Below are positions 1,254 through 13,657 of a stretch of 64,000 nucleotides of DNA, in pieces. How positions within the stretch are numbered: the first letter of the stretch is position 1; the number at the start of each line of letters is the position of its first letter. The notes under the pieces were generated by a model. It was not told the DNA's origin, searched no databases, and was given only the letters and a program-made list of their open reading frames with translations. The position numbers and the translations under genes were made by a program. Source of the stretch: Oceanihabitans sediminis (lineage in GTDB: Bacteria; Bacteroidota; Bacteroidia; Flavobacteriales; Flavobacteriaceae); NCBI RefSeq assembly GCF_003337215.1, contig NZ_QPIG01000001.1, positions 558,001 to 622,000 of the forward strand, given 5' to 3'.

Positions 1254-1955
1254 CTATTCTCTTTTTCTTACTGTAAGTTGTTCTATTCGTTTTTCATATT
1301 TTTCTCCTTGAAAGATGCGTTGCACAAATATTCCTGGAATATGAATTTGATTAGGGTCTAATGTTCCTACAGGCACTAATTCTTCTACTTCGGCAACTGT
1401 TATTTTAGCTGCTCCGCACATATTAGGGTTAAAATTTCTTGCCGTTCCTTTAAAGATTAGGTTTCCAGCTGCATCCCCTTTCCAAGCTTTTACAAAAGCA
1501 AAATCTGCTTTAAAAGCATGTTCAAGCACATACATTTTGCCATCAAACTCTCTAGTTTCTTTTCCATCTGCTACTTCTGTACCATAACCAGCAGGAGTAT
1601 AAATTGCCGGAAAACCTGCTTGTGCTGCTCTACAGCGTTCTGCTAGGGTTCCTTGCGGAATAAGTTCTACTTCCAGCTCGCCAGAAAGCATTTGGCGTTC
1701 AAATTCTGCGTTTTCACCAACATACGATGAAATCATTTTTTTAATTTGATTTTGATGCAATAATAAGCCTAAGCCAAAATTATCTACTCCAGCATTATTA
1801 GAAATACAGGTTAAGCCTTTGGTATTCATTTTCACTAATTCTGCAATAGAATTTTCAGGAATACCAGAAAGCCCAAAACCACCAAACATGAAGGTCATAT
1901 TATCTTGAACTCCTTGCAATGCTTCTTGAACTGAATGTACTTTTTTATTAATCAT
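1254..1955 (-). CDS. scoA: 3-oxoacid CoA-transferase subunit A
   Basis: Alpha subunit of the class I CoA-transferase, 233 residues, the usual length. The CoA-binding glycine-rich motif [11 protein letters not shown] lies at residues 24-34. Family blocks around [29 protein letters not shown] and [10 protein letters not shown] are also present. It pairs with ScoB, 115 bases downstream, to form the heteromeric enzyme used in ketone-body or branched 3-oxoacid metabolism. The start ATG at 1955 is the only sensible one; the aligned family begins at this point. A terminator for the upstream receptor operon lies between this gene and that one, so scoAB probably has its own promoter. Confidence 0.92.
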
Positions 1956-2069: not shown

Positions 2070-4751
2070 CTAAAATCTATATTCTAATTTTAAAAGTATA
2101 AACCTTGGTAGCAATCTATATTCTGTTGTTGATGACCCAATATCACTTATTGAAAAGCTTTTAAAGCTTTTGGTGTTAAACAGGTTTTTTCCTGTAAGTC
2201 CTAATGTTAATTTGTTTTCTATGAGTTTATAGCTTGCATCCAAATCTAAAAAATAATAGTTTTTATCAGCTTGTAAATTACCAAAATAATAGCGTTCTGT
2301 TTGTAATTTAAAATCTAAATTATTATTAAAAACAAAAGATAAATCTAAAAAACTCACATTATTTGTAAACGAATTGTTTATGGTAGTTTCTATTTCTGTG
2401 TTTGTCCATTTTGTACCAATATGGTAGTTAAAAACACCTTTAAAACCAGAACGCAATTCTAAACCATAATTATAACTATTAGAGTTTACGTGCCGTAAAT
2501 CTTGATTATTCACACTGTTTTTAAATTCACTTTTTGTAAAAGCTACATCTAGTTTTAAGTTAGAAGAAATAAACTTAAAATAATAATCTAGGTTAGAATT
2601 AACCGTTATAAACTCTTTGTTTTTAATTACTATTTTTTCAGATTGGGTATGGTTTTGGCTTAGTATTGTGTTGGTTGAAAAGAAATCATGATCTTTACTA
2701 TACAATATAAATGTATTTGCAAAAAAACGATCGCTCCAATTACCAAGTTGATAATTAAGGACTGCACTTGAAACATGTAGTTGATTAAAACCTCCTGTAC
2801 CTTTAGTAAACGATCTATAGCCAGTAAAAGCAAAATTGCTAAATACATCTAATATTTTTGCATTTGTTGTATTGTAAGAATAAGAGGTAGTGATTTTATT
2901 TTTTTCGTTAATTTTCCAATCAAGTCCTAAACTAGGATTGATGAAAAATGGATTTTGATTACTAGCTTTATTATTATTTTCTAGACTATTAAAAAGCTGA
3001 TGAACATCTACCTTACCTATAACCTCAAAAGAATTTATTTTTAAGCGGTATTTACTTTTAAAATACAAGTTGTTAACTTGATAGGATGTTTGGTTTTTAT
3101 AATTATTTGGTTGCTCTAAAACCAAATCATCTTCTAATATTGAAAATGTTGTTGCTAATTTATCTTTTCTAAACTCATTACCCAATTGTATTTCTAATAA
3201 ATGCCCGTTTTCTTTTCGGTCTAGTAAGTGCGCATTTATACCTGTAAATTGCATATGATTAATATTTTGCTCACTTACATTATTTGCTGTACTTAATGCA
3301 GGAAACAAAACTGGATAGTAAAACTGATTAATGCTATAATGTTGAGGTGTTTTTTCATCTATAAACCGGCCTGTTAAAAGAAAAACTGTTTTGTCTTTAA
3401 ATTTATTTGTGTAACTAATTTTCTGGTCTAAAAGTGTGTTTTGGTGTTGTAAATTTTCAATAGTTGTATTACCATTAAAAACCAAATTAGAAGAATCATT
3501 AAAATTGCCATTATTGTATTTGGTTGTAGCTTCTAGCATTTTGGTTTTAGAAATATTGTAGATAAAATCTAATTTTCCAAAGGCTATTCGCTTTTTATTT
3601 TGAAGGTGATAATCTTCTGTATTTGTATAATTTATATTATCTACAGCAACAAAATTAATGGAGTTTCTATAAAAATCGGTTTCATCCCAATTAAAAAAGC
3701 CTAGTGTTTTTATTTTCAGTTTCTCTGTAGGATTAAAAATAGCGTTAAGCGATACCAGTTCTGCATTATTAAAATTGGTTCTGCTTTGTTTAAAATTAAG
3801 GTTGCTTGCAGACAAATTTAACAAGGAATTTACACTTTGATTATCTCCAATACTTGCAGGCTGGTTTAAACGAAATGGGCGAATTAAGTTTTGTATATCT
3901 CCAATAGCATTATAACCAATAGAATTAAGGTTGGTAAAAAAGTAATATTTATTTTTTTTACCAAAATTCATCAAATTACCTTTAAATTGATAGAAGTTGT
4001 CATTGCCAATACTGGTTTCTATATTACCAAACCAAATGCGTTTAGATTTTTCGTTTAGTTTTAAGTTTAAAGCTACTTTATCACTTTCTTCAACACCTTT
4101 TAATAACCTATTATTAGAGTAATTATTAAGCACCTCAACTTCTTCAATTGGATAGGCAGGCATGTTTTTAGATAGTATTTTGTACCCTTTTTCAAAAAGG
4201 TCATCGCCATCTACCATTAGTTTTTCAATTTCTTGATTGCCTACTTTTATTGCTCCATCACTATCTATTTGAATGCCTGGAATTCTTTTTAGCAACTCCT
4301 CGACTGTTTGCTCTGTTCCAGTAGTAAAATACTTAGTTTTAAATGCAATAGTGTCTTTTTTTATTGAAATAGGCAAATCGGCTTGAATAATAACTTCGTC
4401 TAAACTTTCTAATTTTTCTTTTAAAACTACATCTATTTGAATTTCATTTTTAGTAGCATTTAAAATTATAGGAACCGTTTTAGAAGCATAACCTAGAGCA
4501 GAAAACACTAAATTATATTTACCTTTATCGTTTGTTTTAATGGTGTAATTACCTTTATTGTCTGAATATGTATAAGCTATAATTGCATGAGACAAGCTAT
4601 CTTTAAGTATCACACTAACCGAATATAAGTTGTTGGAGTTGTCTTTTATGGAGCCATAAATTGTTGTTTGTGAAAAACAAACGCCTTGAAATATGAATAC
4701 TGTTATTATAAGAAGGAAAAAGTTAAATCTTATTTTGTTTCTTTTCCACAT
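2070..4751 (-). CDS. TonB-dependent receptor-like outer-membrane protein
   Basis: 893 residues. An N-terminal signal peptide ends near FSQ (residues 26-28). A carboxypeptidase-regulatory-like beta-sandwich follows (about 30-115, starting TIYGSIKDNSNN). Next is a plug-like region (about 120-240) with PGIQIDSDGAIKVGNQEIEK and a long C-terminal beta-barrel rich in alternating aromatic strands ending LKLEYRF. This shape is common for SusC-like or TonB-type proteins encoded next to GLPGLI proteins in Flavobacteriia. It would sit in the outer membrane. The substrate cannot be read from sequence. It is downstream of the GLPGLI gene by 57 bases and ends before a terminator, so it is the last gene of that operon. 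Confidence 0.8.
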   Translation of the reverse strand: MWKRNKIRFNFFLLIITVFIFQGVCFSQTTIYGSIKDNSNNLYSVSVILKDSLSHAIIAYTYSDNKGNYTIKTNDKGKYNLVFSALGYASKTVPIILNATKNEIQIDVVLKEKLESLDEVIIQADLPISIKKDTIAFKTKYFTTGTEQTVEELLKRIPGIQIDSDGAIKVGNQEIEKLMVDGDDLFEKGYKILSKNMPAYPIEEVEVLNNYSNNRLLKGVEESDKVALNLKLNEKSKRIWFGNIETSIGNDNFYQFKGNLMNFGKKNKYYFFTNLNSIGYNAIGDIQNLIRPFRLNQPASIGDNQSVNSLLNLSASNLNFKQSRTNFNNAELVSLNAIFNPTEKLKIKTLGFFNWDETDFYRNSINFVAVDNINYTNTEDYHLQNKKRIAFGKLDFIYNISKTKMLEATTKYNNGNFNDSSNLVFNGNTTIENLQHQNTLLDQKISYTNKFKDKTVFLLTGRFIDEKTPQHYSINQFYYPVLFPALSTANNVSEQNINHMQFTGINAHLLDRKENGHLLEIQLGNEFRKDKLATTFSILEDDLVLEQPNNYKNQTSYQVNNLYFKSKYRLKINSFEVIGKVDVHQLFNSLENNNKASNQNPFFINPSLGLDWKINEKNKITTSYSYNTTNAKILDVFSNFAFTGYRSFTKGTGGFNQLHVSSAVLNYQLGNWSDRFFANTFILYSKDHDFFSTNTILSQNHTQSEKIVIKNKEFITVNSNLDYYFKFISSNLKLDVAFTKSEFKNSVNNQDLRHVNSNSYNYGLELRSGFKGVFNYHIGTKWTNTEIETTINNSFTNNVSFLDLSFVFNNNLDFKLQTERYYFGNLQADKNYYFLDLDASYKLIENKLTLGLTGKNLFNTKSFKSFSISDIGSSTTEYRLLPRFILLKLEYRF

Positions 4752-4808
4752 TTATATATAATTATTTCTTTTAGAGTGATGCTTTTAGAAAAATTTAACC
4801 AACTTATT

Positions 4809-5564
4809 TTAGTCATTAAAATTTAATTCAATCGTACTAATTTTGGTTTCTACTTTTACCTGGATACCTCTTCCAAATTTAGACTGAATTTTCTTTCCTA
4901 TTTCACTGTCTATATTATTCATAATATGCAGGTGCTCGTTTAGACTCAAAACGCTTAGTTCTTGATTTAACGGTTTATTAGTAAAGTGATAGGGTATTGT
5001 AATTCTATTTACATAAAAGGTTACTTCCCTTTTATCGTCATAAGCTTCTAGAATTATTCCTGGCAAGCCGTTAAATTTCCATGGCCCAACTGGATTAACT
5101 AATGAAGGTGCAAACCAAACTAAATAGTTCCTTCCTCTAAAAGTAGTTTTTGCTAAATAACATTCAATGTCTTTAATTTTCTTTGTTTGGTTAGTAATGT
5201 TCCATTTTATTTTTGGAACTCTCTCAACAGAATAATAGGAGTTTTTACTTATAAGGTTTTTATGCTTTTCATATAAAGAATCATTAGATTTGTTTATGAA
5301 TATCTCTTTAGCTAAAGAATCTTTTAAAATTATATTAAAGTTTAGATTATTAGAGTCATCTATTTCCTCTACATTTTCCTGGAGAACTTCTGTATACACA
5401 AATAATGAATGTGTGTTATTAAAAAACAGTTCAGACTTATATTCAATAGGTCTATTAATTGCTACAGTCATTTTATATTCAATTTTACCAGTAAAGTTAA
5501 TTTCTTGAGAAAACAGAAAGTTTATAGGTACTATTAAAAAGAGAATAATTATATGTTTTTTCAT
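4809..5564 (-). CDS. GLPGLI family protein
   Basis: 251 residues with an N-terminal signal peptide (cleavage expected after about residue 20, LFSQ). The family signature appears as GLPGI at residues 166-170, within WKFNGLPGIILEAYD. The family is found in Bacteroidota, is exported and has no established biochemical role. A predicted role in handling an outer-membrane or secreted peptide substrate is inference from its neighbours: a small secreted protein upstream and a TonB-type receptor downstream. The start codon at 5564 lies only 12 bases after the T-run of the hairpin at 5577-5606, so translation depends on transcripts that read through that terminator. Confidence 0.85.
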   Translation of the reverse strand: MKKHIIILFLIVPINFLFSQEINFTGKIEYKMTVAINRPIEYKSELFFNNTHSLFVYTEVLQENVEEIDDSNNLNFNIILKDSLAKEIFINKSNDSLYEKHKNLISKNSYYSVERVPKIKWNITNQTKKIKDIECYLAKTTFRGRNYLVWFAPSLVNPVGPWKFNGLPGIILEAYDDKREVTFYVNRITIPYHFTNKPLNQELSVLSLNEHLHIMNNIDSEIGKKIQSKFGRGIQVKVETKISTIELNFND

Positions 5565-5576
5565 TTATATATAAAA

Positions 5577-5606
5577 AATCTACCTTAAATTAATTTAAGG
5601 TAGATT
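5577..5606 (-). terminator. Perfect 30-bp palindrome, intra-operon terminator or attenuator
   Basis: The 30 bases are exactly self-complementary (arms aatctaccttaaatt) and are followed on the minus strand by a six-T run at 5571-5576. It lies between the small secreted protein gene and the GLPGLI gene. It should end most transcripts after the first gene and let a fraction read through. Confidence 0.85.
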
Positions 5607-5618
5607 ATTTAGGGTTAA

Positions 5619-5969
5619 TTAAGCGGATAATGCTTGTTTGGCTTCTGCATACAATCTCTTTATAGTAGCACTAACCTCACTGCAAGGTATGTTTTCTGCC
5701 GTCAAAGTAACTGAAACAATTCCTAAACTTACAGTGACTGATACAGAAACAGTACAATCCTTTTTATTAAAAATTTGATCAACATCAAAATTCTCAAAAT
5801 CTGAAAAAGAATTAAAGCTCACATTTGTATTAATCTTTTCTGATAGATCTGTAGTTTCTGATAGATCTGTAGTTTCTATTTGAATCACTACTTTTTCATC
5901 ATTAATTGATGAACGCGCAATCGTTGTTCCCATTAGCATAAAAGCTAAAACAAAAAATAAATTTTTCAT
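5619..5969 (-). CDS. Small secreted protein, function unknown
   Basis: 116 residues. A signal peptide (about 1-19, MKNLFFVLAFMLMGTTIARS) is followed by an acidic Ser/Thr-rich region and a beta-prone stretch with alternating Val/Ser (about 73-92). There are only two cysteines, C72 and C96, which could form one disulfide. An in-frame duplication gives ETTDLS twice at residues 32-43. I recognise no family. It is first in a minus-strand set with the GLPGLI and receptor genes and is followed by a strong terminator, so it is probably the most abundant product. The arrangement suggests a secreted substrate or precursor for its neighbours; that is inference. Confidence 0.7.
   Translation of the reverse strand: MKNLFFVLAFMLMGTTIARSSINDEKVVIQIETTDLSETTDLSEKINTNVSFNSFSDFENFDVDQIFNKKDCTVSVSVTVSLGIVSVTLTAENIPCSEVSATIKRLYAEAKQALSA
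5841..5876. repeat. 18-bp perfect tandem duplication inside the small secreted protein gene
   Basis: Two identical copies of an 18-base unit (tgatagatctgtagtttc) lie at 5841-5858 and 5859-5876. Each adds six residues (ETTDLS), so the frame is kept. This fits recent slippage or unequal exchange. Confidence 0.9.
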
Positions 5970-6018
5970 AATTCTAAAATTTTAAACCAGTTTATAGTTT
6001 AAGTACTGGTTGGTTATT
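5963..6018. repeat. Repeat R1, copy 1: leader of the small secreted protein gene
   Basis: Covers the start codon and leader of the gene at 5619-5969. It shares the block ttctaaaattttaaaccagt and the trailing tactggttggtta with R1 copy 2 (8981-9038). It contains an inverted repeat, aaccagt (5985-5991) and actggtt (6005-6011), about 20 bases before the ATG. Loop bases differ between copies while the arms are kept. Confidence 0.8.
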
Positions 6019-6190
6019 ATAAATTAAGAAGCTAGAAGCATTTTTAAGAAGCTAATTGTAAAAATAAACTTGCGCAAGTTATTGGTGTTGCAACTGTACT
6101 CTTATTAATTTAAGGCTTCTTAGTACTTAAAATAACTGGAATACTCCGCGAACATAAAAAAAAAAAAAAACGGTTCTCACAAGTATTTTT

Positions 6191-6213
6191 AGAAAACTTT
6201 TCCTACAAGTTGT
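6191..6213. repeat. Repeat R4, copy 1
   Basis: The block agaaaacttttcctacaa occurs here and again at 11083-11104, in both cases shortly after a poly-A run. Short, but too long to be a chance match. Confidence 0.65.
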
Positions 6214-6215
6214 TA

Positions 6216-6414
6216 TTTACGGGAAAACCGTAAAAAACGGGCTGTTTTTAAGCAAAAAGTCATTTGGAGAAGAATGGTTTTGCTTATTTTTATTTAAGCT
6301 TGTTGCCTTTTTATTGGGTGAAAAACTAGGTTTTTATTCTTATAGCAAAAAAGAGCTAAAGTTTAAATTTAGCTCTTAATTGCTCTTATATGTGCTTGGT
6401 TGTGGTTAGTTTTT
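6216..6414. repeat. Repeat R3, copy 1 (shared 3' flank of lipoprotein genes)
   Basis: About 200 bases match 9348-9544. The segment 6268-6382 is essentially identical to 9397-9511. It begins with a hairpin (tttacgg-gaaaa-ccgtaaa, 6216-6234), contains a minus-strand terminator (6345-6378) and ends exactly at the stop codon of the lipoprotein frame at 6406. The other copy likewise ends at the stop of the gene at 9542. Confidence 0.9.
6345..6378 (-). terminator. Terminator inside R3 copy 1
   Basis: The stem gagctaaa (6353-6360) pairs with tttagctc (6368-6375), followed on the minus strand by a run of six Ts. It ends the lipoprotein transcript that stops at 6406. Confidence 0.85.
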
Positions 6415-6790
6415 ATTATATACGAATATTTTACCGCTTATCATATCTCTTATAGAAAGAGTGTTGTTGTTTTCGAAATTAGCACCATAAAGCTCATAAC
6501 ATCTATGGCTTAAATCCTCTAAATCAATCATTTTCAAAAACCAAGTATTCACATCTGTTTCTGAATCGCATTGATGTGAAATAGTATAGCTATAGGTGTC
6601 CTCTAAAACATTATTATAATAATCTAAACACTGGTTATTTGTATTAAATACCCATTTTACATTTGGATCATCTTCTGCAACCCAAGTACCAATAATTTCT
6701 GTTGCTATGTTTGGTTGTGCTTGTTGTGCTTTACAGCTATTTGAGAATAGTATAAATAAAGCAATTATGAATAATTTTATTATTTTCCAT
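6406..6790 (-). pseudogene. Small lipoprotein with a displaced start codon
   Basis: A 128-codon frame (6406-6789) encodes a lipoprotein signal, WKIIKLFIIALFILFSNSC, with the lipobox SNSC followed by KAQQAQPN. The mature part starts IIGTWVAEDD, a GTW motif also found in the lipoprotein at 9542. The frame has no ATG, GTG or TTG before the lipobox. An ATG at 6788-6790 is out of frame by one base and leads to a stop after 17 codons, as if one G had been inserted after an original ATG AAA. Either the gene is newly broken or there is a sequence error. It lies 25 bases after the GH19 stop codon, so the two were probably co-transcribed. Confidence 0.65.
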
Positions 6791-6815
6791 TTTTAGTATA
6801 TTTTATATATTTATA

Positions 6816-7451
6816 TTATAAACAAGATATTGAGTCTTTTGCTTTTTCGAAAATTTCTTTTCTATCAGTTAAACCATTTTTTCCACCATTAACTTTTTTT
6901 GTTACTGTTTTTACAGTTGTATTTGTATTTATTGTGATTTTATCTATTACACTAGTTTTGTAAAACCAAAGAGCACTTAATATTGCAATTGTATCATTGT
7001 CTTTTAATAATTCAGGACTAGAAACAAAATCTTTATCTGGATCATATTTGTTGTTATACCAAGTTTGAAAATTAGTGTAATTACTTCTTCCTGTTAATTG
7101 AAATATACCTCTTCCTCTATACTTATAGCCATCTCCACTTACCACATCTCCATTTCCCATTCGACAACAGTATACATAATTTGCATGACCAGATGGATTA
7201 CTAACGTATATATCTGGATTCTTTTTATTTACTGTGTCAGTTTCAGAGTAATATTTAGGGAAAATTTTCAATAATCGTGACTTAGTTGTATAATTAGTAC
7301 TTTCCTCAACACCAAAACCATTAGCAAAACCTCCAACTTCATGACCTGCCTGTGATAAAAAATGTTGTAATTTCTCTTTTGTATCAATCCCAAAATCTTT
7401 TCCTTTATCATTAATTACAGCTTCTAGTGTAGACGCATTATTATCAGACAT
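6816..7451 (-). CDS. GH19-like chitinase/lysozyme domain, probably the 3' part of a frameshifted gene
   Basis: 211 residues of a glycoside hydrolase family 19-like domain, which cleaves chitin or peptidoglycan glycan. Visible blocks are HFLSQAGHEVGGFANG (catalytic-type Glu E38), VEESTNYTT, IFPKYY and YKYRGRGIFQLTGRSNY (109-125). The domain does not begin at this ATG. The in-frame upstream codons read SKEDLKKIFPN, the usual first helix of this domain, preceded by a Pro/Glu/Asp-rich linker with cysteines. That frame stays open to about 7661 but has no start codon, and a one-base shift at 7641-7646 joins it to a lipoprotein-like N terminus. The active domain is intact but probably not expressed as designed. 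Confidence 0.75.
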   Translation of the reverse strand: MSDNNASTLEAVINDKGKDFGIDTKEKLQHFLSQAGHEVGGFANGFGVEESTNYTTKSRLLKIFPKYYSETDTVNKKNPDIYVSNPSGHANYVYCCRMGNGDVVSGDGYKYRGRGIFQLTGRSNYTNFQTWYNNKYDPDKDFVSSPELLKDNDTIAILSALWFYKTSVIDKITINTNTTVKTVTKKVNGGKNGLTDRKEIFEKAKDSISCL

Positions 7452-7640
7452 ATTAGGAAAAATTTTCTTTAAATCCTCTTTAGAGGTATTACAATCATCT
7501 TCTTCTTGTGGTTCTGTAGGTGGCTTAACACCAGTTTCTTCATTTGGCGCACAATCGCCACCAATACCTGCTATAGGTTGTCCATCTAGAATATTTGTAC
7601 CAGAGGTTTGGCATGGGTCGTCTTGGTTAGTATTATGACA

Positions 7641-7783
7641 GGTTTTAATTTTTCTATTTCGTTAAGTGAAATAACTTTATAAGACATTTCCGTTGTGGTT
7701 ATTGCTTCTAGCTGGTTTAGTTCTTCCTTTTGGCATGCACTAATAATGTATTTGTATATGAAATATAGCAGATTTATATGAAC
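7641..7783 (-). pseudogene. Lipoprotein N terminus of the broken GH19 gene
   Basis: In the frame one base away from the GH19 domain, codons read VHINLLYFIYKYIISAC, then QKEELNQLEAI and MSYKVISLNEIEKLK. This is a hydrophobic stretch, a lipobox-like ISAC (Cys at 7733-7735) and a start of the mature protein. Inserting one A in the run at 7643-7646 would continue it as TCHNTNQDDPC into the GH19 frame. No start codon stands before the hydrophobic stretch. So this fragment and the ORF at 6816-7451 appear to be two parts of one decayed gene. Confidence 0.6.
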
Positions 7784-7875
7784 TGATTTTCGGTTTAAAG
7801 ACAAAAATAGCAGAAAAGAGCGAAACTTGAGTATAGCTCTTTTTAGGTGTTTTATATATATATTGTTATGGGCTT

Positions 7876-8166
7876 TTATTTTTTTTCTTTGGGTAACCCA
7901 GCTAGAATTAAGTTCACAAATGGAATTAAAAATAGCCATTTTGAAAGACCAACTTCGTTTAGCCTTCTAAACCCTAAAGTGGTAAATGGAATTATTATAA
8001 TTATATTGTATATAGTTCCAATATGATTTAACCCAAATGCAGCCTTCAAAACACCAATGAAAATTGAGATTATTATGTTAATTAACATAAAATACCAAAA
8101 CTCTTTAATTGAAGCCTTACTTTGAATGTCTGTAGCCTTTTTAAAGGCATTAATGTAATATTTCAT
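7876..8166 (-). CDS. DUF805 family inner-membrane protein
   Basis: 96 residues with about three membrane segments. The family signature is visible as LGFRRLNEVGLSKWLFLIP, followed by LVNLI-like FVNLILAGLP and a charged KEKK end. A soluble helix (KEFWYFMLINII) precedes the first segment, as in DUF805 proteins related to YhaH. The function of the family is not established. It lies 12 bases after the stop of the Cys-rich lipoprotein gene (8179-8751) on the same strand, so the two form a likely operon. Confidence 0.85.
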   Translation of the reverse strand: MKYYINAFKKATDIQSKASIKEFWYFMLINIIISIFIGVLKAAFGLNHIGTIYNIIIIIPFTTLGFRRLNEVGLSKWLFLIPFVNLILAGLPKEKK

Positions 8167-8178
8167 AAAACGTTAAAT

Positions 8179-8751
8179 TTATAACTGTGGACCTCCACAA
8201 TTTGTATAAGCACAGTTTGCGAACTCTTCAGCCACGCAAGCAAATCCAGCTGCAATACAAACTAATTTACTTATTGTGCCCATATTGTCAATAGAATCTC
8301 TGGTACATTGTCTAATACTTTCGTAATCACATCCTCTATATAATTGTTGCGTATAATTATCATTAGTATTCGGAAGTGCATTTTCGATCCCATTAATAAC
8401 AATTGATTCATATAAAATCTCGTTATTAATAGAGTAGATAAATGAGCCGTTGAGTTGGTCTATATTATTTTGAAAATAATTAGTTAATTCTTCGTCATTA
8501 TTAAAGTCAGGAAGTGGATCGTCAGAAATAAAAGAGAACTCAATATTAAGTTCTTGATATTTATTCGTATGATTATTGTTTTTTGCAGTAGAAAAATTAT
8601 TAGAATTTTGCTCAAAAAACATAGTGCCAGTTGTTTTAATTTCATTTGTAATTTTTTCATCACTAATATTTTCATTTGAACAAGAAGTGGTAATTATACT
8701 TATAAGTAATAATGTAGCTGTAACTAGAATACTTAATCTAAATTTTGTCAT
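8179..8751 (-). CDS. Lipoprotein with a six-cysteine C-terminal segment, function unknown
   Basis: 190 residues. The lipoprotein signal ends at C24 (ISIITTSC). A long Asn/Glu-rich linker follows. The last 50 residues hold six cysteines (C141, C149, C165, C172, C180, C185) and end CAYTNCGGPQL. The spacing suggests up to three disulfides in a compact helical module. I do not recognise the family. It should be exported and anchored to a membrane. Its downstream partner is a DUF805 membrane protein 12 bases away. Base composition is even more AT-rich than the housekeeping genes around the island. Confidence 0.7.
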   Translation of the reverse strand: MTKFRLSILVTATLLLISIITTSCSNENISDEKITNEIKTTGTMFFEQNSNNFSTAKNNNHTNKYQELNIEFSFISDDPLPDFNNDEELTNYFQNNIDQLNGSFIYSINNEILYESIVINGIENALPNTNDNYTQQLYRGCDYESIRQCTRDSIDNMGTISKLVCIAAGFACVAEEFANCAYTNCGGPQL

Positions 8752-8909
8752 TTTTTTAATTTTTGAGTGCCTTTTCTTTTTCTAAGGCTAATTGGTTGTT
8801 ATTTGTATTTAAATAGTTGTAATTTTAAATCATATTTTACTTCAGATTACTTTCTGGTTGCAAGATGGTTAGTCTCACGTTTGTTATTTTCTTAACTGTT
8901 CTATTAAAT

Positions 8910-8987
8910 TTAATTACCCATAACTATAGAAAACACTAAGAGTAAGGCTAAGTGTTTTAAATGATTTATATATAGCTGTTTTTTCAT
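8910..8987 (-). pseudogene. Orphan 25-codon signal-peptide ORF with an R1 leader
   Basis: The ATG at 8985-8987 follows R1 copy 2 at the same distance as in the gene at 5619-5969. It opens a 25-residue product, MKKQLYINHLKHLALLLVFS then IVMGN, that has the charge and hydrophobic profile of a signal peptide, then stops at TAA 8910-8912. A neighbouring frame stays open for about 25 codons after that. The best reading is the surviving start of a decayed secreted-protein gene that once had the same leader as 5619-5969. A genuine tiny peptide is the alternative. Confidence 0.55.
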
Positions 8988-9038
8988 AAATTCTAAAATT
9001 TTAAACCAGTATGTAGTTTTGTACTGGTTGGTTAGTAA
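8981..9038. repeat. Repeat R1, copy 2
   Basis: Matches R1 copy 1 over the start codon, the ttctaaaattttaaaccagt block and the tactggttggtta tail. The inverted repeat here is aaccagta (9004-9011) and tactggtt (9022-9029), one pair longer than in copy 1, with a different loop. Confidence 0.8.
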
Positions 9039-9110
9039 AAATTTAGCCGAATTTTTTAGCCGAAAAATGTATAGCCGATGTGTATTAAAATAACAAGCCG
9101 TTATTATTTT

Positions 9111-9278
9111 TTAGTACACTAATAAATCTCTTAAGAGTAAATTGCTGCCGAAGCAGAAATGTTGAAAAAACTAGTACTAGTTATAGATTAATCTTGGTGT
9201 CTTTAGCAAATTTTTAATGGGCTAAGATTTAAATTTTTGCCTCAAACAAGTCAAACCTAAAAAAAAAAAAAAAAAAAA
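9111..9278. repeat. Repeat R2, copy 1
   Basis: About 150 bases are nearly identical to 10900-11062, differing by a handful of substitutions and a short indel. The element contains a perfect 14-bp palindrome aactagtactagtt (9169-9182), a small ctgc/gcag hairpin, a ttagc...gctaa pair and a terminal poly-A run. It is non-coding on both strands. Confidence 0.9.
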
Positions 9279-9347
9279 CAAATCACTCTACTTTTAATCT
9301 TGTTTTTTTGCATTTCATCGAAAAGAGCCAATTTCTTACAAAACCCA

Positions 9348-9544
9348 TTACGGTTTTCCCGTAAAAAAAGGGGTTTTAAGCAAAATACCATTTAGAGAAG
9401 AATGGTTTTGCTTATTTTTATTTAAGCTTGTTGCCTTTTTATTGGGTGAAAAACTAGGTTTTTATTCTTATAGCAAAAAAGAGCTAAAGTTTAAATTTAG
9501 CTCTTAATTGCTTTTATATGTGCTTGGTTGTGGTTGGTTTTTTA
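9348..9544. repeat. Repeat R3, copy 2
   Basis: Second copy of the 200-base 3' flank, ending at the stop codon of the lipoprotein gene at 9542. Its first hairpin (ttacgg-ttttc-ccgtaa, 9348-9364) has the same arms as copy 1, but the five-base loop is exactly inverted. Confidence 0.9.
9473..9506 (-). terminator. Terminator inside R3 copy 2
   Basis: The stem gagctaaa (9481-9488) pairs with tttagctc (9496-9503) and a run of Ts follows on the minus strand. It serves the lipoprotein gene ending at 9542. Confidence 0.85.
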
Positions 9545-10159
9545 TTGTTTGGTTAAAATTATTTCTTGGTGAGTTGGTATTCTATCATCATCTGGTTGAC
9601 CCTCAAGCACTATAGACATATCAGATAATTTTATTTTAATTTTTATTTGTTCAGAATTACCAGATTGAGCAGGAATATGTCTTATTTCCATTTCATAATC
9701 GAAATAATTGCGCAAATGATCTTCTATAGAAATTTTCACACGACGTTCACTTTCAGTACATTCATTGCAACTTGGTAAATGATTTTTAGATATGATATAA
9801 TTACCATAAAGCGAATGCTGATAAATGTTAGAAAATGTATCAATAAGACTTAATGTATTAACAATTTCTGTTCCATTGGAATCTATGTACAAATATTCTC
9901 CGTATAAGACATCTTCTTTGTATAAAATATTTCTAGCATTTACAGTATCTTGTTCTTTCTTTTTAATTATAAGTTTGAGTGATTCATTACCATTAGTATA
10001 TTGCCAAGTTCCTATTAATTTTGTTAAATCACCATCTATATCCTTATAGTAGGCATTATCTACATCAAAATCGTTAGGAGTATCATATAGTGGAAATGTT
10101 TGCGCTTTACAAGAAAAAAAAGTAATTAATGTTATAGTGATAAAAAAGAATTGTTTCAT
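9542..10159 (-). CDS. GTW-motif lipoprotein, possibly DUF6705 family
   Basis: 205 residues from ATG 10159. I chose this start because the lipoprotein signal MKQFFFITITLITFFSC begins here; the 15 codons upstream add nothing. The lipidated Cys is C17. The mature protein starts KAQTFPLYDTPNDFDVDNAY and contains LTKLIGTWQYTNGNESL, the GTW block seen also at 6406. A CxxC pair (SCNEC) lies mid-protein. The layout resembles a Flavobacteriia lipoprotein family that I recall as DUF6705, of unknown function; that assignment is from memory and uncertain. The stop codon abuts R3 copy 2, which supplies its terminator. Confidence 0.75.
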   Translation of the reverse strand: MKQFFFITITLITFFSCKAQTFPLYDTPNDFDVDNAYYKDIDGDLTKLIGTWQYTNGNESLKLIIKKKEQDTVNARNILYKEDVLYGEYLYIDSNGTEIVNTLSLIDTFSNIYQHSLYGNYIISKNHLPSCNECTESERRVKISIEDHLRNYFDYEMEIRHIPAQSGNSEQIKIKIKLSDMSIVLEGQPDDDRIPTHQEIILTKQ

Positions 10160-10291
10160 AATGATTTTGTTTAGTTGCACGGTTCTCTTTCTACCGTAAC
10201 ACATACAAACACGGATTTAAATTTATTTCTTACCTATGAAACACTATAGTTCTTAACTGCAGTTATTTATATATTTGGTTATAGGCAGTAT

Positions 10292-10744
10292 TTATTTGTT
10301 TCTTAATGTGTCCATTTTCACTTTATTATCTTTGGAAAAAGCACTATCAACTTTTTTTAAAAACCCTTCAGCTTCTTTATAGTTTTCTATTTTATGATAA
10401 TTCCTTAGTTTTCCATCTCTATCAAGCTCAATTTCCCAACCATTTCCTATTCTATCAACTTTTAGCATTTGTAAAAATTCATCCTTTGTATAAGAATTAA
10501 GGTTAAAGGAATCTATCCGTCTTTTTATAAGCGAAATTCTGATATTTTTTTTAATAGATTTAGAGATTTCAAATAAAATAGAATCCTCTTTTTTTAATAA
10601 ATAAAATTCCTCATTAGTTAAATTTATTTTATTTTTTATTAAAGCTATTGATTCCTGTTTTTCTTTTAGATTTGTAAATGGAGCGTGTGATTTACATGCA
10701 AAAACAAAAAATATGCATAATAAAAATATGTTACTTGTCTTCAT
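10292..10744 (-). CDS. Small lipoprotein, function unknown
   Basis: 150 residues with a lipoprotein signal, MKTSNIFLLCIFFVFAC, and lipidated C17. The mature part is Lys-rich and largely helical (for example LIKNKINLTNEEFYLLKKED), with a short strand-like patch GNGWEIELDRDGKLRNY. I recognise no family. It is a single gene on the minus strand. A 50-codon gene remnant and R2 copy 2 lie immediately upstream, and the DUF6705-like lipoprotein lies 132 bases downstream. Confidence 0.7.
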   Translation of the reverse strand: MKTSNIFLLCIFFVFACKSHAPFTNLKEKQESIALIKNKINLTNEEFYLLKKEDSILFEISKSIKKNIRISLIKRRIDSFNLNSYTKDEFLQMLKVDRIGNGWEIELDRDGKLRNYHKIENYKEAEGFLKKVDSAFSKDNKVKMDTLRNK

Positions 10745-10753
10745 AATATAAAC

Positions 10754-10904
10754 TTAATGTGTATAATACCAGTAACTAATATTTTCGTTTAGCACACCAG
10801 TAGAGTAATTATATGCAATAAGGACTGTTATTTCTCTACGAACTCTAAATGGGTAGCCATCTATTTTTAACCCTATTTGAATTTCCCCCTGTATATAAAT
10901 TTTA
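10754..10904 (-). pseudogene. 3' gene remnant cut by repeat R2
   Basis: An open frame of about 50 codons without a start ends at TAA (10754-10756). It reads IYIQGEIQIGLKIDGYPFR, then VRREITVLIAYNYSTGVLN and ENISYWYYTH. Its protein-like composition contrasts with the low-complexity flanks. The frame becomes non-coding exactly where R2 copy 2 begins. I read it as the end of a gene whose 5' part was lost in an exchange at the repeat. The family is not recognisable from this piece. Confidence 0.5.
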
Positions 10905-11062
10905 GTACTCTAATAAATCTCTTAAGAATAAATTGCTGCCGAAGCAGAAATAGAAAAAAAACTAGTACTAGTTATAGATTAATCTTGGTGTCTTTAGCAA
11001 ATTTTTAATCGGCTAAGATTTAAATTTTTACCTCAAACAAGTCAAACCTAAAAAAAAAAAAA
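10900..11062. repeat. Repeat R2, copy 2
   Basis: Near-identical to 9111-9278, including the 14-bp palindrome (10960-10973) and the poly-A end. After the poly-A the two copies diverge completely: copy 1 leads to R3, copy 2 to R4. Confidence 0.9.
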
Positions 11063-11082
11063 CAATTTCAATGTGTTTTTCT

Positions 11083-11104
11083 AGAAAACTTTTCCTACAA
11101 CTTG
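11083..11104. repeat. Repeat R4, copy 2
   Basis: Shares agaaaacttttcctacaa with 6191-6213 and again follows a poly-A run. It marks the right edge of the repeat-rich island. Confidence 0.65.
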
Positions 11105-11137
11105 ATACTTTATGTTTTGATATTAAAATACTTATGA

Positions 11138-11170
11138 TAAAAAAAGCCATTCTTTTTCAGAATGGCTTTC
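11138..11170 (-). terminator. Terminator after pbp1A
   Basis: On the minus strand, aagccattct pairs with agaatggctt and is followed by seven Ts. It lies about 140 bases after the pbp1A stop and separates the core genome from the accessory island. Confidence 0.8.
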
Positions 11171-11308
11171 AACTATATTTTTCTTGAAACTTTCGGTTTT
11201 TCCTTTATAAAAAACCAATTTCTGTTAACTTTTGAGCTGTTGAGACCAAGGTCTTACATGAAAACGAACATTACGTTTCCAATTATATTATTCTTGTATC
11301 ACAAATTC

Positions 11309-13657
11309 TTAGAAGTCTAATTCTTCTGGTATATCTTCATCAGAATTTTCAGAATCTCCTCCTTGATTAGGATTATAGTTTTCACAATTCACTTCTATAG
11401 TAAGATTTTCGGGCTTTTTAAAATCTCCTTTAGAAATGTTAAGAGTCTCATCTTCATAACAGCTCTTCATATACATACCCCAAATTGGTAATGCCATAGC
11501 TGCTCCTTGGCCATAAGTAATAGAGGCAAAGTGTGTTGCTCTATCTTCTGCTCCAACCCATACACCGGTTACTAAATTAGGCACCATACCCATAAACCAA
11601 CCATCACTTTGGTTCTGTGTGGTTCCTGTTTTTCCTGCAATTGGATTGGTAAACTCATAAGGGTAGCCAGTAATTATTTCTCTGTAATCTGCTCGCCATT
11701 TATCTCGACCTTTTCCTCTTAGTCTACTTCCCGATCCAGATTGTGTAACTCCTTGCATTAAATTAACCGTTACATAGGCTACTTCTTCACTTAACACATC
11801 TCTAGATTCTGGCGTAAATTGGTATAAAATGGTTCCGTTTTTATCTTCAATATGAGTTACCATTACTGGTTTGGTGTATACTCCTTGATTTGCAAAGGTA
11901 GCATAGGCTCCCACCATTTCGTATACACTAATATCTGAAGTACCTAAACCAATAGATGGCACTGCTAATATTTCGGATTCTACCCCTAATTTTTTCACTA
12001 AATCTACTACTGGTTGTGGGCCAACCTTATCCATTAACCTTGCTGTAATGGTATTAATAGAGTTTGCTAAAGCATTTTTTAATGTTCGCGTTCCACCGTA
12101 TTTGTTATCAGAGTTTTTAGGTGTCCATGGTTCTGGATTTCCAAACTTATTAGCTTCAATAGTTATTTGGGTGTTTGGTAATTCGTCACAAGGAGAAAGG
12201 TGCAACTGATCTATTGCTGTTGCATAAACAAATGGTTTAAAAGTAGAACCTACTTGACGCTTACTTTGTTTTACGTGATCAAACTGAAAGTGTCTATAGT
12301 TCATACCACCAACCCATGCTTTTACATGACCAGTTTCTGGATCCATACTCATCATTCCTGGGTGTAAGAAATGCTTATAATAACGCATAGAATCTAATGG
12401 CTTCATGATGGTATCAATTTCACTTGGCTTACCGTCTTTCCAAGCGAAAACACTCATTTTTGTAGGCTTTTCAAACGAAGCGATAATCTCCTTTTCACTC
12501 TTTCTAAGATCGTATTTCATATGCCTCCATCGTTCACTTTGCCTCATAGAACGCTTCATTAAGGCATCTATTTGATTTTTATCTAAATCTAGAAATGGTG
12601 CTGTTGGATTTCTATCTGGTGTGTTTTGATGAAAAAACTCAGCTTGCAGTCTAGGCATATGTCTTGCTACCGCTTCTTCTGCATGTAATTGCATTCTAGA
12701 ATCGATAGTAGTATACACTTTTAACCCGTCACTATTAATATTATATTTTGAACCATCTGGCTTTCTATTTGCTTCATCGTTTGTCCAATCTTTCATAAAA
12801 GCACGAAGATATTCTCTAAAATAGGTTGCTGTACCTTCACGGTGTGACTCTGGTGAATAGCGTAAACCTAAATCTAATTTCTGTAGAGAATCTTTAAGTT
12901 TTTCATCTATATATCCATATTTCTCCATTTGCGCTAAAACCACATTACGTCTGTTTTTTACACCAACAGGGTTACGCTCTGGCCTTGGATTATATAAGGA
13001 AGAGTTTTTAAACATTCCTACCAACATAGCAGATTCTTTTACATCTAATTCGATTGGTTCTTTTCCGAAATAAATACGGGAAGCAGAACGAATTCCATCT
13101 GCATTATTTCCAAAATCGTAGATATTGAAGTATTGTGCTATAATTTCTTCTTTGGTATATTGTCTTTCTAGTTTAGTAGCAATAATCCACTCTTTTGCTT
13201 TCTGAGAAATTCTTTCTACAATATTTTTAGAACCCTCACCATGAAATAATTGTTTGGCTAATTGTTGTGAAATAGTACTTGCACCTCCGCCTTTTCCTAA
13301 TTTAAAAATGGCTCTTAAGGTTCCTCTTGCATCTACTCCTGAGTGATCGTAGTACCTAGCATCTTCTGTAGCAACTAACGCATCTACGAGATGCTGTGGT
13401 AATTCGTCATAGCTTACAGGTGTTCTGTTATCGTTAAAATAGAATTTTCCTAATGTTTTTCCGTCTGAAGAAATAATTTCAGTAGCTAAATTGGTTTTAG
13501 GATTTTCTAAAACGGTATGATCTGGAAGTGGACCAAAAACACCCCATGAAGCTAGTAGAAATAAGAAGATTACTACCATAAAGCCTCCTAGAAAAAGGAT
13601 CCAAAATAAACGAATATATTTACTAAAGTCTTGTGTTTTTTCTTGTTTTTTTGCCAT
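11309..13657 (-). CDS. pbp1A: Penicillin-binding protein 1A, bifunctional glycosyltransferase/transpeptidase
   Basis: 782 residues. One membrane anchor lies at about 17-40. The GT51 transglycosylase domain has its catalytic Glu at E98 in ATEDARYYDHSGVD, followed by GGASTISQQLAKQLF. The transpeptidase domain has the acylated Ser S471 in the SxxK motif GSTFKPF (K474), the SxN motif in NSINTITAR and the KTG motif in GKTGTTQNQSDGWF. It polymerises and cross-links peptidoglycan on the periplasmic side. Length is normal for Bacteroidota class A PBPs. The acidic C-terminal tail (SENSDEDIPEELDF) is unstructured. It starts 26 bases after the gldH stop, so it is probably co-transcribed with ricT-like and gldH. 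Confidence 0.95.
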   Translation of the reverse strand: MAKKQEKTQDFSKYIRLFWILFLGGFMVVIFLFLLASWGVFGPLPDHTVLENPKTNLATEIISSDGKTLGKFYFNDNRTPVSYDELPQHLVDALVATEDARYYDHSGVDARGTLRAIFKLGKGGGASTISQQLAKQLFHGEGSKNIVERISQKAKEWIIATKLERQYTKEEIIAQYFNIYDFGNNADGIRSASRIYFGKEPIELDVKESAMLVGMFKNSSLYNPRPERNPVGVKNRRNVVLAQMEKYGYIDEKLKDSLQKLDLGLRYSPESHREGTATYFREYLRAFMKDWTNDEANRKPDGSKYNINSDGLKVYTTIDSRMQLHAEEAVARHMPRLQAEFFHQNTPDRNPTAPFLDLDKNQIDALMKRSMRQSERWRHMKYDLRKSEKEIIASFEKPTKMSVFAWKDGKPSEIDTIMKPLDSMRYYKHFLHPGMMSMDPETGHVKAWVGGMNYRHFQFDHVKQSKRQVGSTFKPFVYATAIDQLHLSPCDELPNTQITIEANKFGNPEPWTPKNSDNKYGGTRTLKNALANSINTITARLMDKVGPQPVVDLVKKLGVESEILAVPSIGLGTSDISVYEMVGAYATFANQGVYTKPVMVTHIEDKNGTILYQFTPESRDVLSEEVAYVTVNLMQGVTQSGSGSRLRGKGRDKWRADYREIITGYPYEFTNPIAGKTGTTQNQSDGWFMGMVPNLVTGVWVGAEDRATHFASITYGQGAAMALPIWGMYMKSCYEDETLNISKGDFKKPENLTIEVNCENYNPNQGGDSENSDEDIPEELDF

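Follow-up and report, generated by a model that had tools for sequence, protein, structure and literature searches.

We examined a window of 64,000 nucleotides (nt) from Oceanihabitans sediminis (Flavobacteriaceae; contig NZ_QPIG01000001.1, positions 558,001 to 622,000), in which three units of exported-protein genes, A, B and C, lie behind pbp1A on the minus strand and are accompanied by recurring non-coding blocks termed R1 to R4 (Table 1). The initial annotation had taken these blocks for neutral intergenic recombination modules; instead, they read as one promoter, a leader RNA and a start-codon hairpin. We consider it probable, on sequence evidence, that the repeats are copies of a single expression module placed before exchangeable exported-protein operons at a fixed pbp1A–scoA site, and that a repeat in the promoter spacer would serve as a switch.

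Read away from pbp1A, unit A comprises R4, a T13 tract, the -7 box, the leader and the genes of a 150-residue (aa) lipoprotein-like protein and a DUF6705 protein, followed by R3. Unit B runs from the dyad at 9364-9348 through T20, the -7 box, leader and R1 to genes for a lipoprotein, a DUF805 protein, a GH19-domain protein and a short lipoprotein, again followed by R3, and unit C from the dyad at 6233-6217 through R4, T15, a weak box, leader and R1 to genes for an exported protein, a GLPGLI protein and a receptor, followed by scoA (3-oxoacid CoA-transferase subunit A, named from its sequence). The ATG of R1 in unit B opens a frame that ends within a few codons. The GH19 gene is probably truncated, because its open frame (6816-7700) extends 5' of the first ATG to a stop with no further start. 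A short lipoprotein gene of the same unit (6423-6790, minus strand), in which no in-frame start codon is seen by eye, also looks damaged. Short inserted hairpins of the CTGCTTCGGCAG type lie at 9135-9160 and 10925-10950, between the leader and R1 or the gene in units B and A, and an insert resembling a repetitive extragenic palindrome (REP) lies at the matching place near 12800 in the related locus L030.

Table 1. Features of the locus in order from pbp1A to scoA (positions in the window).
Feature	Position	Strand	Remarks
pbp1A, penicillin-binding protein 1A, left border	11309..13657	-	Pfam Transgly + Transpeptidase; anchor in 80 related loci
R4, unit A, just 5' of -33 TTG	11083..11104	-	aligns with ATTTTCTAtAAAAACTTG block of relatives
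Unit A promoter	11043..11062	-	-7 box TAGGTTTG 11043-11050; T13 11050-11062; TTG 18 nt upstream
Unit A leader RNA, R2 core	10957..11043	-	covariance model 103.5 bits; training member
Unit A 150-aa lipoprotein-like exported protein; no R1 ahead	10292..10744	-	no Pfam family above cut-off
Unit A DUF6705 protein	9542..10204	-	PF20448, E 5.9e-33
R3, terminator region of DUF6705 gene, ending in dyad TTACGGGAAAACCGTAA (9348-9364)	9348..9544	-	
TTTTCGATGAAATGCA box, recurring upstream of promoter in relatives	9309..9324	-	motif recognised here
Unit B promoter	9252..9278	-	-7 box TAGGTTTG 9252-9259; T20 9259-9278; TTG 19 nt upstream
Unit B leader RNA, R2 core, closing with AACTAGTACTAGTTTTT hairpin	9166..9252	-	
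Unit B R1, AACCAGT...ACTGGTT hairpin and start codon (ATG at 8987)	8981..9038	-	
Unit B 190-aa Cys-rich lipoprotein	8179..8751	-	tblastn match behind first promoter of L029
Unit B DUF805 membrane protein	7876..8166	-	PF05656, E 7.3e-10
Unit B GH19 (chitinase/lysozyme-like) domain gene	6816..7451	-	PF00182, E 4.2e-5, below gathering score
R3, second copy (dyad 6217-6233)	6216..6414	-	
R4, second copy	6191..6213	-	
Unit C promoter	6149..6170	-	weak -7 box TATGTTCG 6149-6156; T15 6156-6170; TTG 23 nt upstream
Unit C leader RNA, divergent R2	6064..6149	-	24.1 bits, E 0.03-0.2 depending on bases searched; folds alone to common shape
Unit C R1	5963..6018	-	
Unit C 116-aa small exported protein	5619..5969	-	31% identical to L089 protein
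Unit C GLPGLI (Porph_ging) protein	4809..5564	-	PF09697, E 1.1e-4, just under gathering score; supported by alignment
Unit C TonB-type outer-membrane receptor, type 2	2070..4751	-	only CarboxypepD_reg domains in Pfam; type named from domain and length
scoA, right border	1254..1955	-	directly next to pbp1A in 41 of 53 loci of relatives containing both

R1 to R4 were recovered essentially where they had first been placed, together with the A-runs of 20, 13 and 15 nt on the plus strand that correspond to the T-tracts of Table 1. The R2 copies (9109-9274 and 10900-11065) are 95% identical over 166 nt and the R3 copies (6246-6414 and 9374-9542) 96% over 169 nt, with the dyad end additional; R1 agrees at 89% over 65 nt and R4 at 88% over 33 nt. 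This likeness is far beyond chance, R1 falling slightly short of the 90-100% originally given. To the two R2 copies already known must be added a third, divergent one in unit C, which had been overlooked; of the 27 leaders compared, a Lacinutrix genome has those that come nearest to it (78%).

Across the whole 2.9-Mb genome, R2, the TTACGG-N4..6-CCGTAA dyad (reversed control, none) and the pattern T9-TAnnTTTG (reversed pattern, none) each match at two places, and R1 matches convincingly at two, all within this locus; 11 further R1-like matches are weak, eight of which (L111-L118) were inspected by eye and are coding or unrelated, and three were not read. By these matches the module is confined to one locus of its own genome, and the genome-wide scatter that had been named as the contrary outcome was not seen for R2, R1, the T-tract pattern or the dyad, as far as the searches could be run. 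A dispersed intergenic repeat, such as a REP or a miniature inverted-repeat transposable element (MITE), was rejected because R2, R1 and the dyad have two copies each, all here. An invertible promoter of the Bacteroides type was also rejected: the module copies are direct repeats, and none of the longest 25 of 36 inverted pairs between 4500 and 13000 flanks a promoter.

R3, judged from its matches, is a DUF6705-type terminator region fused to the promoter's upstream dyad. Its 5' half, to which the terminator hairpin AGAGCTAAA... belongs, has two more genomic matches of ~80% (L005 and L006, contig C16), each just behind a DUF6705-like gene by eye, and therefore appears to be a terminator region specific to that gene which was carried along; a conserved 3' region may accompany DUF6705 genes when they move.

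For comparison with relatives, we used collections holding one genome per species. A covariance model of the leader, run over 397 genomes of the family (E<=0.01, with stricter filters), placed it at 32 positions in 22 of them, and 30 of these loci were read, two in G141 being left out. Additionally, 80 loci anchored on pbp1A were compared, in 10 of which R1 was detected, and a set of 41 leaders was collected that includes loci initially selected by T-tract.

In this material, R1 to R4 resolve into a single module, consisting of a TTACGG-N5-CCGTAA dyad at the end of R3, the R4/-33 region, a poly-T spacer, a -7 box (TAnnTTTG), the leader and R1, an anatomy common to 25 upstream regions among the matches listed. 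For the main sigma factor of Flavobacterium psychrophilum, a published study gives TAnnTTTG at -12 to -5 and a median 5' untranslated region (UTR) of 24 nt (PMC9723704). Because the numbering of that study puts the transcript start ~5 nt past the box, unit B would have a 5' UTR of ~260 nt. At the 5' edge of the leader, TAnnTT[TA][GA] stands in register in 27 of the 30 model hits, the two n positions being variable; in two more, L218 and L219, it is displaced by 1-3 nt. In 27 of the 41 leaders, the -7 box is preceded at 17-29 nt by a TTG, the T-tract lying in between, and the dyad is present upstream of 24.

Between these two core promoter boxes sits a simple repeat, T13, T20 and T15 in units A, B and C. 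Of the 30 model hits, 25 have a repeat of T, AT or TTA units in the 33 nt that precede the -7 box, as do 32 of the full set of 41 leaders (partly chosen by T-tract); among 2046 other TAnnTTTG sites in the loci compared, 5 have one. The units seen at matching spacer position are (T)n, (AT)5, (AT)11 and (TTA)4; that different repeats occupy one position suggests that instability itself is selected. In genome G369, two contig ends share 181 nt with a T14 versus T13 tract as the sole difference, one end carrying the upstream gene and the other the downstream operon; because this order matches that of G071, they are probably one locus with two tract lengths. Orthologous tracts in L043 and L212 read T13 and T3GT9, although with one genome per species an artefact is possible. 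From these sequences we infer a slipped-strand, phase-variable promoter, in which slippage should tune the operon because the tract sits within the promoter spacer.

Several findings tell against this reading of the promoter. No TTG is found within 33 nt ahead of the -7 box in 12 of the 41 leaders, and only a closer one in 2. The simple repeat is not obligatory, since it is missing from 5 of the 30 model hits and also from L029 unit 1, L030, L061 and both L089 leaders. Taken by itself, T9-TAnnTTTG is not a specific pattern, occurring in 70 of the 397 family genomes, and of 74 such places read, 14 have an R1 match, three of them weak. Finally, the T13/T14 difference in G369 could be slippage in sequencing or assembly. 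A T-tract that serves as a fixed bending or UP-like element of the promoter and drifts neutrally in length would suit A/T-rich spacers, which are common, and the leaders just named that lack a tract; we nevertheless regard it as somewhat unlikely, given the contrast between background sites and model hits, a unit that changes from (T)n to (AT)n or (TTA)n at constant position, as expected if slippage is kept, and a TTG spacing that ranges over 17 to 29 nt where a TTG is present.

Downstream of the promoter, a 14-nt palindrome, AACnnGCGCnnGTT, with T's behind it stands at a near-fixed ~77 nt from the -7 box, as the alignments show, while T-tract length (5 to 20) and the distance to R1 vary. The intervening leader of ~85 nt has a predicted common fold, a long irregular hairpin P1-P2-P3, which 19 of 24 leaders reach when folded singly (our own reading). 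RNAalifold on the MAFFT alignment returned the terminal hairpin only, so a close subset was modelled first and the rest realigned by the covariance model, three noise rows and L082 as a source having been removed beforehand and L192 removed as a chance match. In the plain MAFFT alignment of 11 related leaders, for which the structure was derived from one member, 93.0% of cells are paired and 7 of 21 pairs are double-changed. In the 25 leaders realigned with a bias to the structure and G-U allowed, six of which stem from loci chosen by T-tract, 90.0% of cells are paired and 17 of 21 pairs change on both sides, with 83 double-changed cells against 26.8 +/- 5.0 in shuffled alignments and a covariation score of 0.472, where shuffling gives 0.201 and sliding 0.143 at most. 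The alignment holds 47 G-U and 11 A-C cells (G-U being allowed in fitting), which favours an RNA of the gene strand over folded DNA, and the covariance model recovers leader types absent from its training set. Two low-scoring matches in a 96-source model search, L035 and L081, were taken as noise. Rfam gave no match at gathering score in six sources; at a permissive E<=10, seven matches fell in the window stretch, none overlapping a leader.

The case for a conserved RNA is weakened by the alignment choices just given and by further points. Single-leader minimum free energy z-scores range from +0.37 to -3.90 in 13 sequences and are mostly unremarkable; the leaders of unit A in the window and of L029 unit 1 and both of L089 do not reach the common shape when folded alone, and L097 does so partly; the model misses the L092, L082 and L021 leaders at the threshold used; and the terminal hairpin, which with its T's lies between promoter and gene, has a stem of 5 bp, short for a terminator. 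With a long stem at about +1 and a terminal hairpin followed by U's, the leader probably acts by attenuating or stabilising the transcript. Alternatively, it could be a small RNA in its own right, complete with terminator, from which the downstream genes are read through incidentally. Such an RNA would share the free-standing layout of a predicted 5' end at the P1 stem base and a terminal hairpin with a T-run, as well as the long 5' region of unit B. We judge this reading unlikely: in all 27 uncut loci, a first frame of small exported peptide, GLPGLI or lipoprotein type (by eye) follows on the same strand 122-531 nt after the leader start, and in many loci R1 and a start codon stand close behind the leader.

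R1 itself forms a hairpin ~20 nt ahead of the start codon, with 97.1% of cells paired in 30 sequences and 11 double-changed cells versus 3.5 in shuffles; pairs changed on both sides, however, number 2 of 7, which 172 of 500 shuffles also reach. Because R1 also occurs inside operons, with no leader hairpin found ahead, in L029, L030, L033, L072 and L174 (for example at L029 16659 and L174 7429), it belongs to the gene start and not to the promoter.

The site between pbp1A and scoA is occupied in few relatives. Among 53 loci with both genes, the gap is empty (<=300 bp) in 41 and holds 301-1500 bp in six and >1500 bp in six; the other 27 of the 80 loci, including the unit carriers L030, L082, L089, L092 and L093, were left out because scoA was not in the stretch examined. 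A cassette swap with its breakpoint at the start codon is shown, at sequence level, by L043 and L242, which belong to two species of one genus. They are 94.4% identical from pbp1A to L043 base 12873, 14 bases into the gene, share no match of at least 30 nt from there to 16630, and resume at 96.0% just before scoA. From the pbp1A stop to the ATG, 442 of 474 aligned bases are identical, compared with 131 of 281 in the 300 nt past the ATG, where shuffles average 45%. The swapped blocks of 3.7-3.8 kb carry different receptor types: the window receptor is 64% identical to that of L242, but shares only ~30% with the type found in L029, L043 and L174 (members 71-85% alike), and this over roughly 250-290 residues. 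The cassette-like exchange locus proposed by the initial annotation is thereby borne out, as are its constant repeats with differing genes behind them. Its left border at pbp1A also stands, but its right border does not: because the TonB-receptor/GLPGLI operon lies within the swapped segment, exchange extends to scoA (1955).

Consistent with the earlier proposal of recombination in the repeats, L030 is a three-way mosaic, matching L029 unit 1 in promoter and leader, unit 2 in R1 and unit 4 in the gene, and its switches fall inside R1. Leader copies are each other's nearest kin within the genome in the window, L089, L092, L154, L155 and L174 (93 vs 92%). The constancy of module and scoA flank would let recombination swap the interior, and we infer homologous recombination as the agent. 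A recombinase or integrase domain, whose absence had been noted before, was not found in the ten island and flank proteins scanned (2070-13657); the rest of the window and the genome were not scanned. Less favourable to general exchange through the module are the L029 and L097 leader copies, which do not group within their genomes, the 7.6-kb insert of L044, which has neither R1 nor leader, and L093, which lacks R1; moreover, the comparison covered the pbp1A-scoA site, leaders at other sites lying outside it.

A plain tandem duplication followed by decay, in which operon and promoter were doubled and genes lost or gained at random with no ongoing exchange, is quite unlikely. It would account for the leaders of units A and B, which are 98% alike and 86% or less like those of other genomes compared, for the two window genes that appear truncated or startless, and for the degenerate pbp1A-type terminator that R3 seems by eye to hold, a copy expected from duplication behind pbp1A. 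It does not accommodate L043 and L242, in which a single module is followed by a wholly different 3.7-kb cassette, set between flanks that are 93% and 96% identical, nor the receptors, which are 64-85% alike within types and ~30% over a third of their length between them, a divergence so deep that the cassettes would have been imported and are not decayed copies. Highly improbable is an attC-like or Xer-like site, folded as single-stranded DNA and used by a site-specific recombinase on integron-like cassettes, which would suit a structure kept more than sequence, palindromes, accessory small genes and demonstrated exchange, but conflicts with an element that begins at the -7 box at near-fixed distance, 5' of operons and not at gene 3' ends, with tolerated G-U and few A-C cells (47 vs 11, fitted with G-U allowed), with the L043/L242 breakpoint at R1 and the start codon, outside the leader, with the R1 copies inside operons of five loci and with the lack of an integrase among the ten proteins scanned. 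Integron attC arrays likewise place a structure-conserved element amid exchangeable small genes, but differ in position, strand asymmetry and the integrase, which was absent from the proteins scanned; attC boxes were not searched for.

Returning to the expression module, its order is an upstream dyad, a -33 region, a simple-repeat spacer, a -7 box, a structured leader and a start-codon hairpin, and its cargo operons code for small two-cysteine peptides, GLPGLI proteins, lipoproteins and a TonB-type receptor. Homologous recombination in the module and the scoA flank would swap, duplicate or delete the genes between them, an incoming cassette would obtain a ready promoter, and slipped-strand loss or gain of bases in the spacer tract would tune each operon up or down. 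Going further, the locus could be a plug-in expression site of an undescribed class, in which the specificities of a secreted peptide, a GLPGLI protein and a receptor are swapped at the start-codon hairpin under a stochastic spacer switch, the cargo being a diversifying phase-variable peptide-receptor system, for example bacteriocin-like or for recognition, with two invariant cysteines on a hypervariable helical-hairpin peptide; we put this forward tentatively, as a possibility somewhat short of an even chance.

The small peptides share two invariant cysteine columns in 15 sequences and little else. AlphaFold and Foldseek results serve here as side evidence only: in the one peptide modelled, the cysteines mark the ends of a helical hairpin (blocks of the mature part averaging pLDDT 82-95), and a GLPGLI model (pLDDT 79.5) shows a likeness to PNGase F-II and a weaker one to LolA-like folds. 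A sequence search with an L029 GLPGLI protein also matches PNGF-II, and GLPGLI proteins (L029:15917-16624; window 4809-5564, minus strand) have sequence and fold in common with the N-terminal domain of PNGase F-II, a possible lead to GLPGLI function as far as the models go. Solved relatives of the receptor were not found by sequence at E<=0.01, and in viral contigs two pattern stretches were seen for GLPGLI, neither confirmed as a relative.

An order-wide scan of 395 genomes (E<=0.001) gave no accepted leader outside the family; two genomes had a match, one of them the window's own, and the other, L245, was judged false, having no -7 box and no close gene. Away from pbp1A, the leader of L021/L228 precedes a protease precursor of C10 (streptopain-like) type whose propeptide is inhibitor-like, and in that genome the pbp1A-scoA site is empty (L031). 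A second module site, behind an acyltransferase-like gene, is seen in two genera (L009 in G071; L246 and L247 in G369), and the expression site is therefore not bound to pbp1A alone. A pair of lipoprotein and thioredoxin-like genes follows the leader in two genera as well (L029:14133-15242 and L237).

Parallels exist elsewhere. In Neisseria meningitidis, porA, opc and fetA have an unstable homopolymer between core promoter elements (PMC2791445). As here, the repeat lies inside the promoter spacer and the cargo is a surface or exported protein; unlike there, the -7 box is of Bacteroidetes type (TAnnTTTG), the units are T, AT or TTA, and a leader RNA and several operons are involved. The tract of opc is reportedly poly-C. 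In Helicobacter pylori, a variable T-tract tunes promoter output of sabA (PMC4081817), and that rheostat is alike in having a T-tract, which in our case stands directly before the -7 box, within the spacer. Capsule and polymorphic toxin loci also have constant flanks and wholesale multi-gene swaps between relatives; here, unlike there, the constant left flank reaches the start codon and carries the promoter and leader RNA, so the resident module would drive expression of an incoming cassette. Rfam lists structured RNAs from Bacteroidetes (Flavo-1, Bacteroidales-1 and Bacteroid-trp; PMC2864571) that are likewise family-restricted with conserved structure, but none of its families matches the present leader at gathering score in the six sources.

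No account of such promoters, of the leader RNA or of GLPGLI peptide operons turned up in the literature searched, where GLPGLI is met in only three papers, and we have not seen the combination of a covariation-supported leader family, spacer repeats of changing unit and cassette swaps at the start codon described. F. psychrophilum is said to show phase variation of its colonies. Should the switch prove real, it may be the first of the slipped-strand promoter type described in Flavobacteriia, none having been met in that literature, and the locus offers a way into the study of GLPGLI proteins and the small secreted peptides that partner them. From its sequence, it looks like a built-in means by which marine flavobacteria could exchange, and perhaps randomly switch, surface functions.

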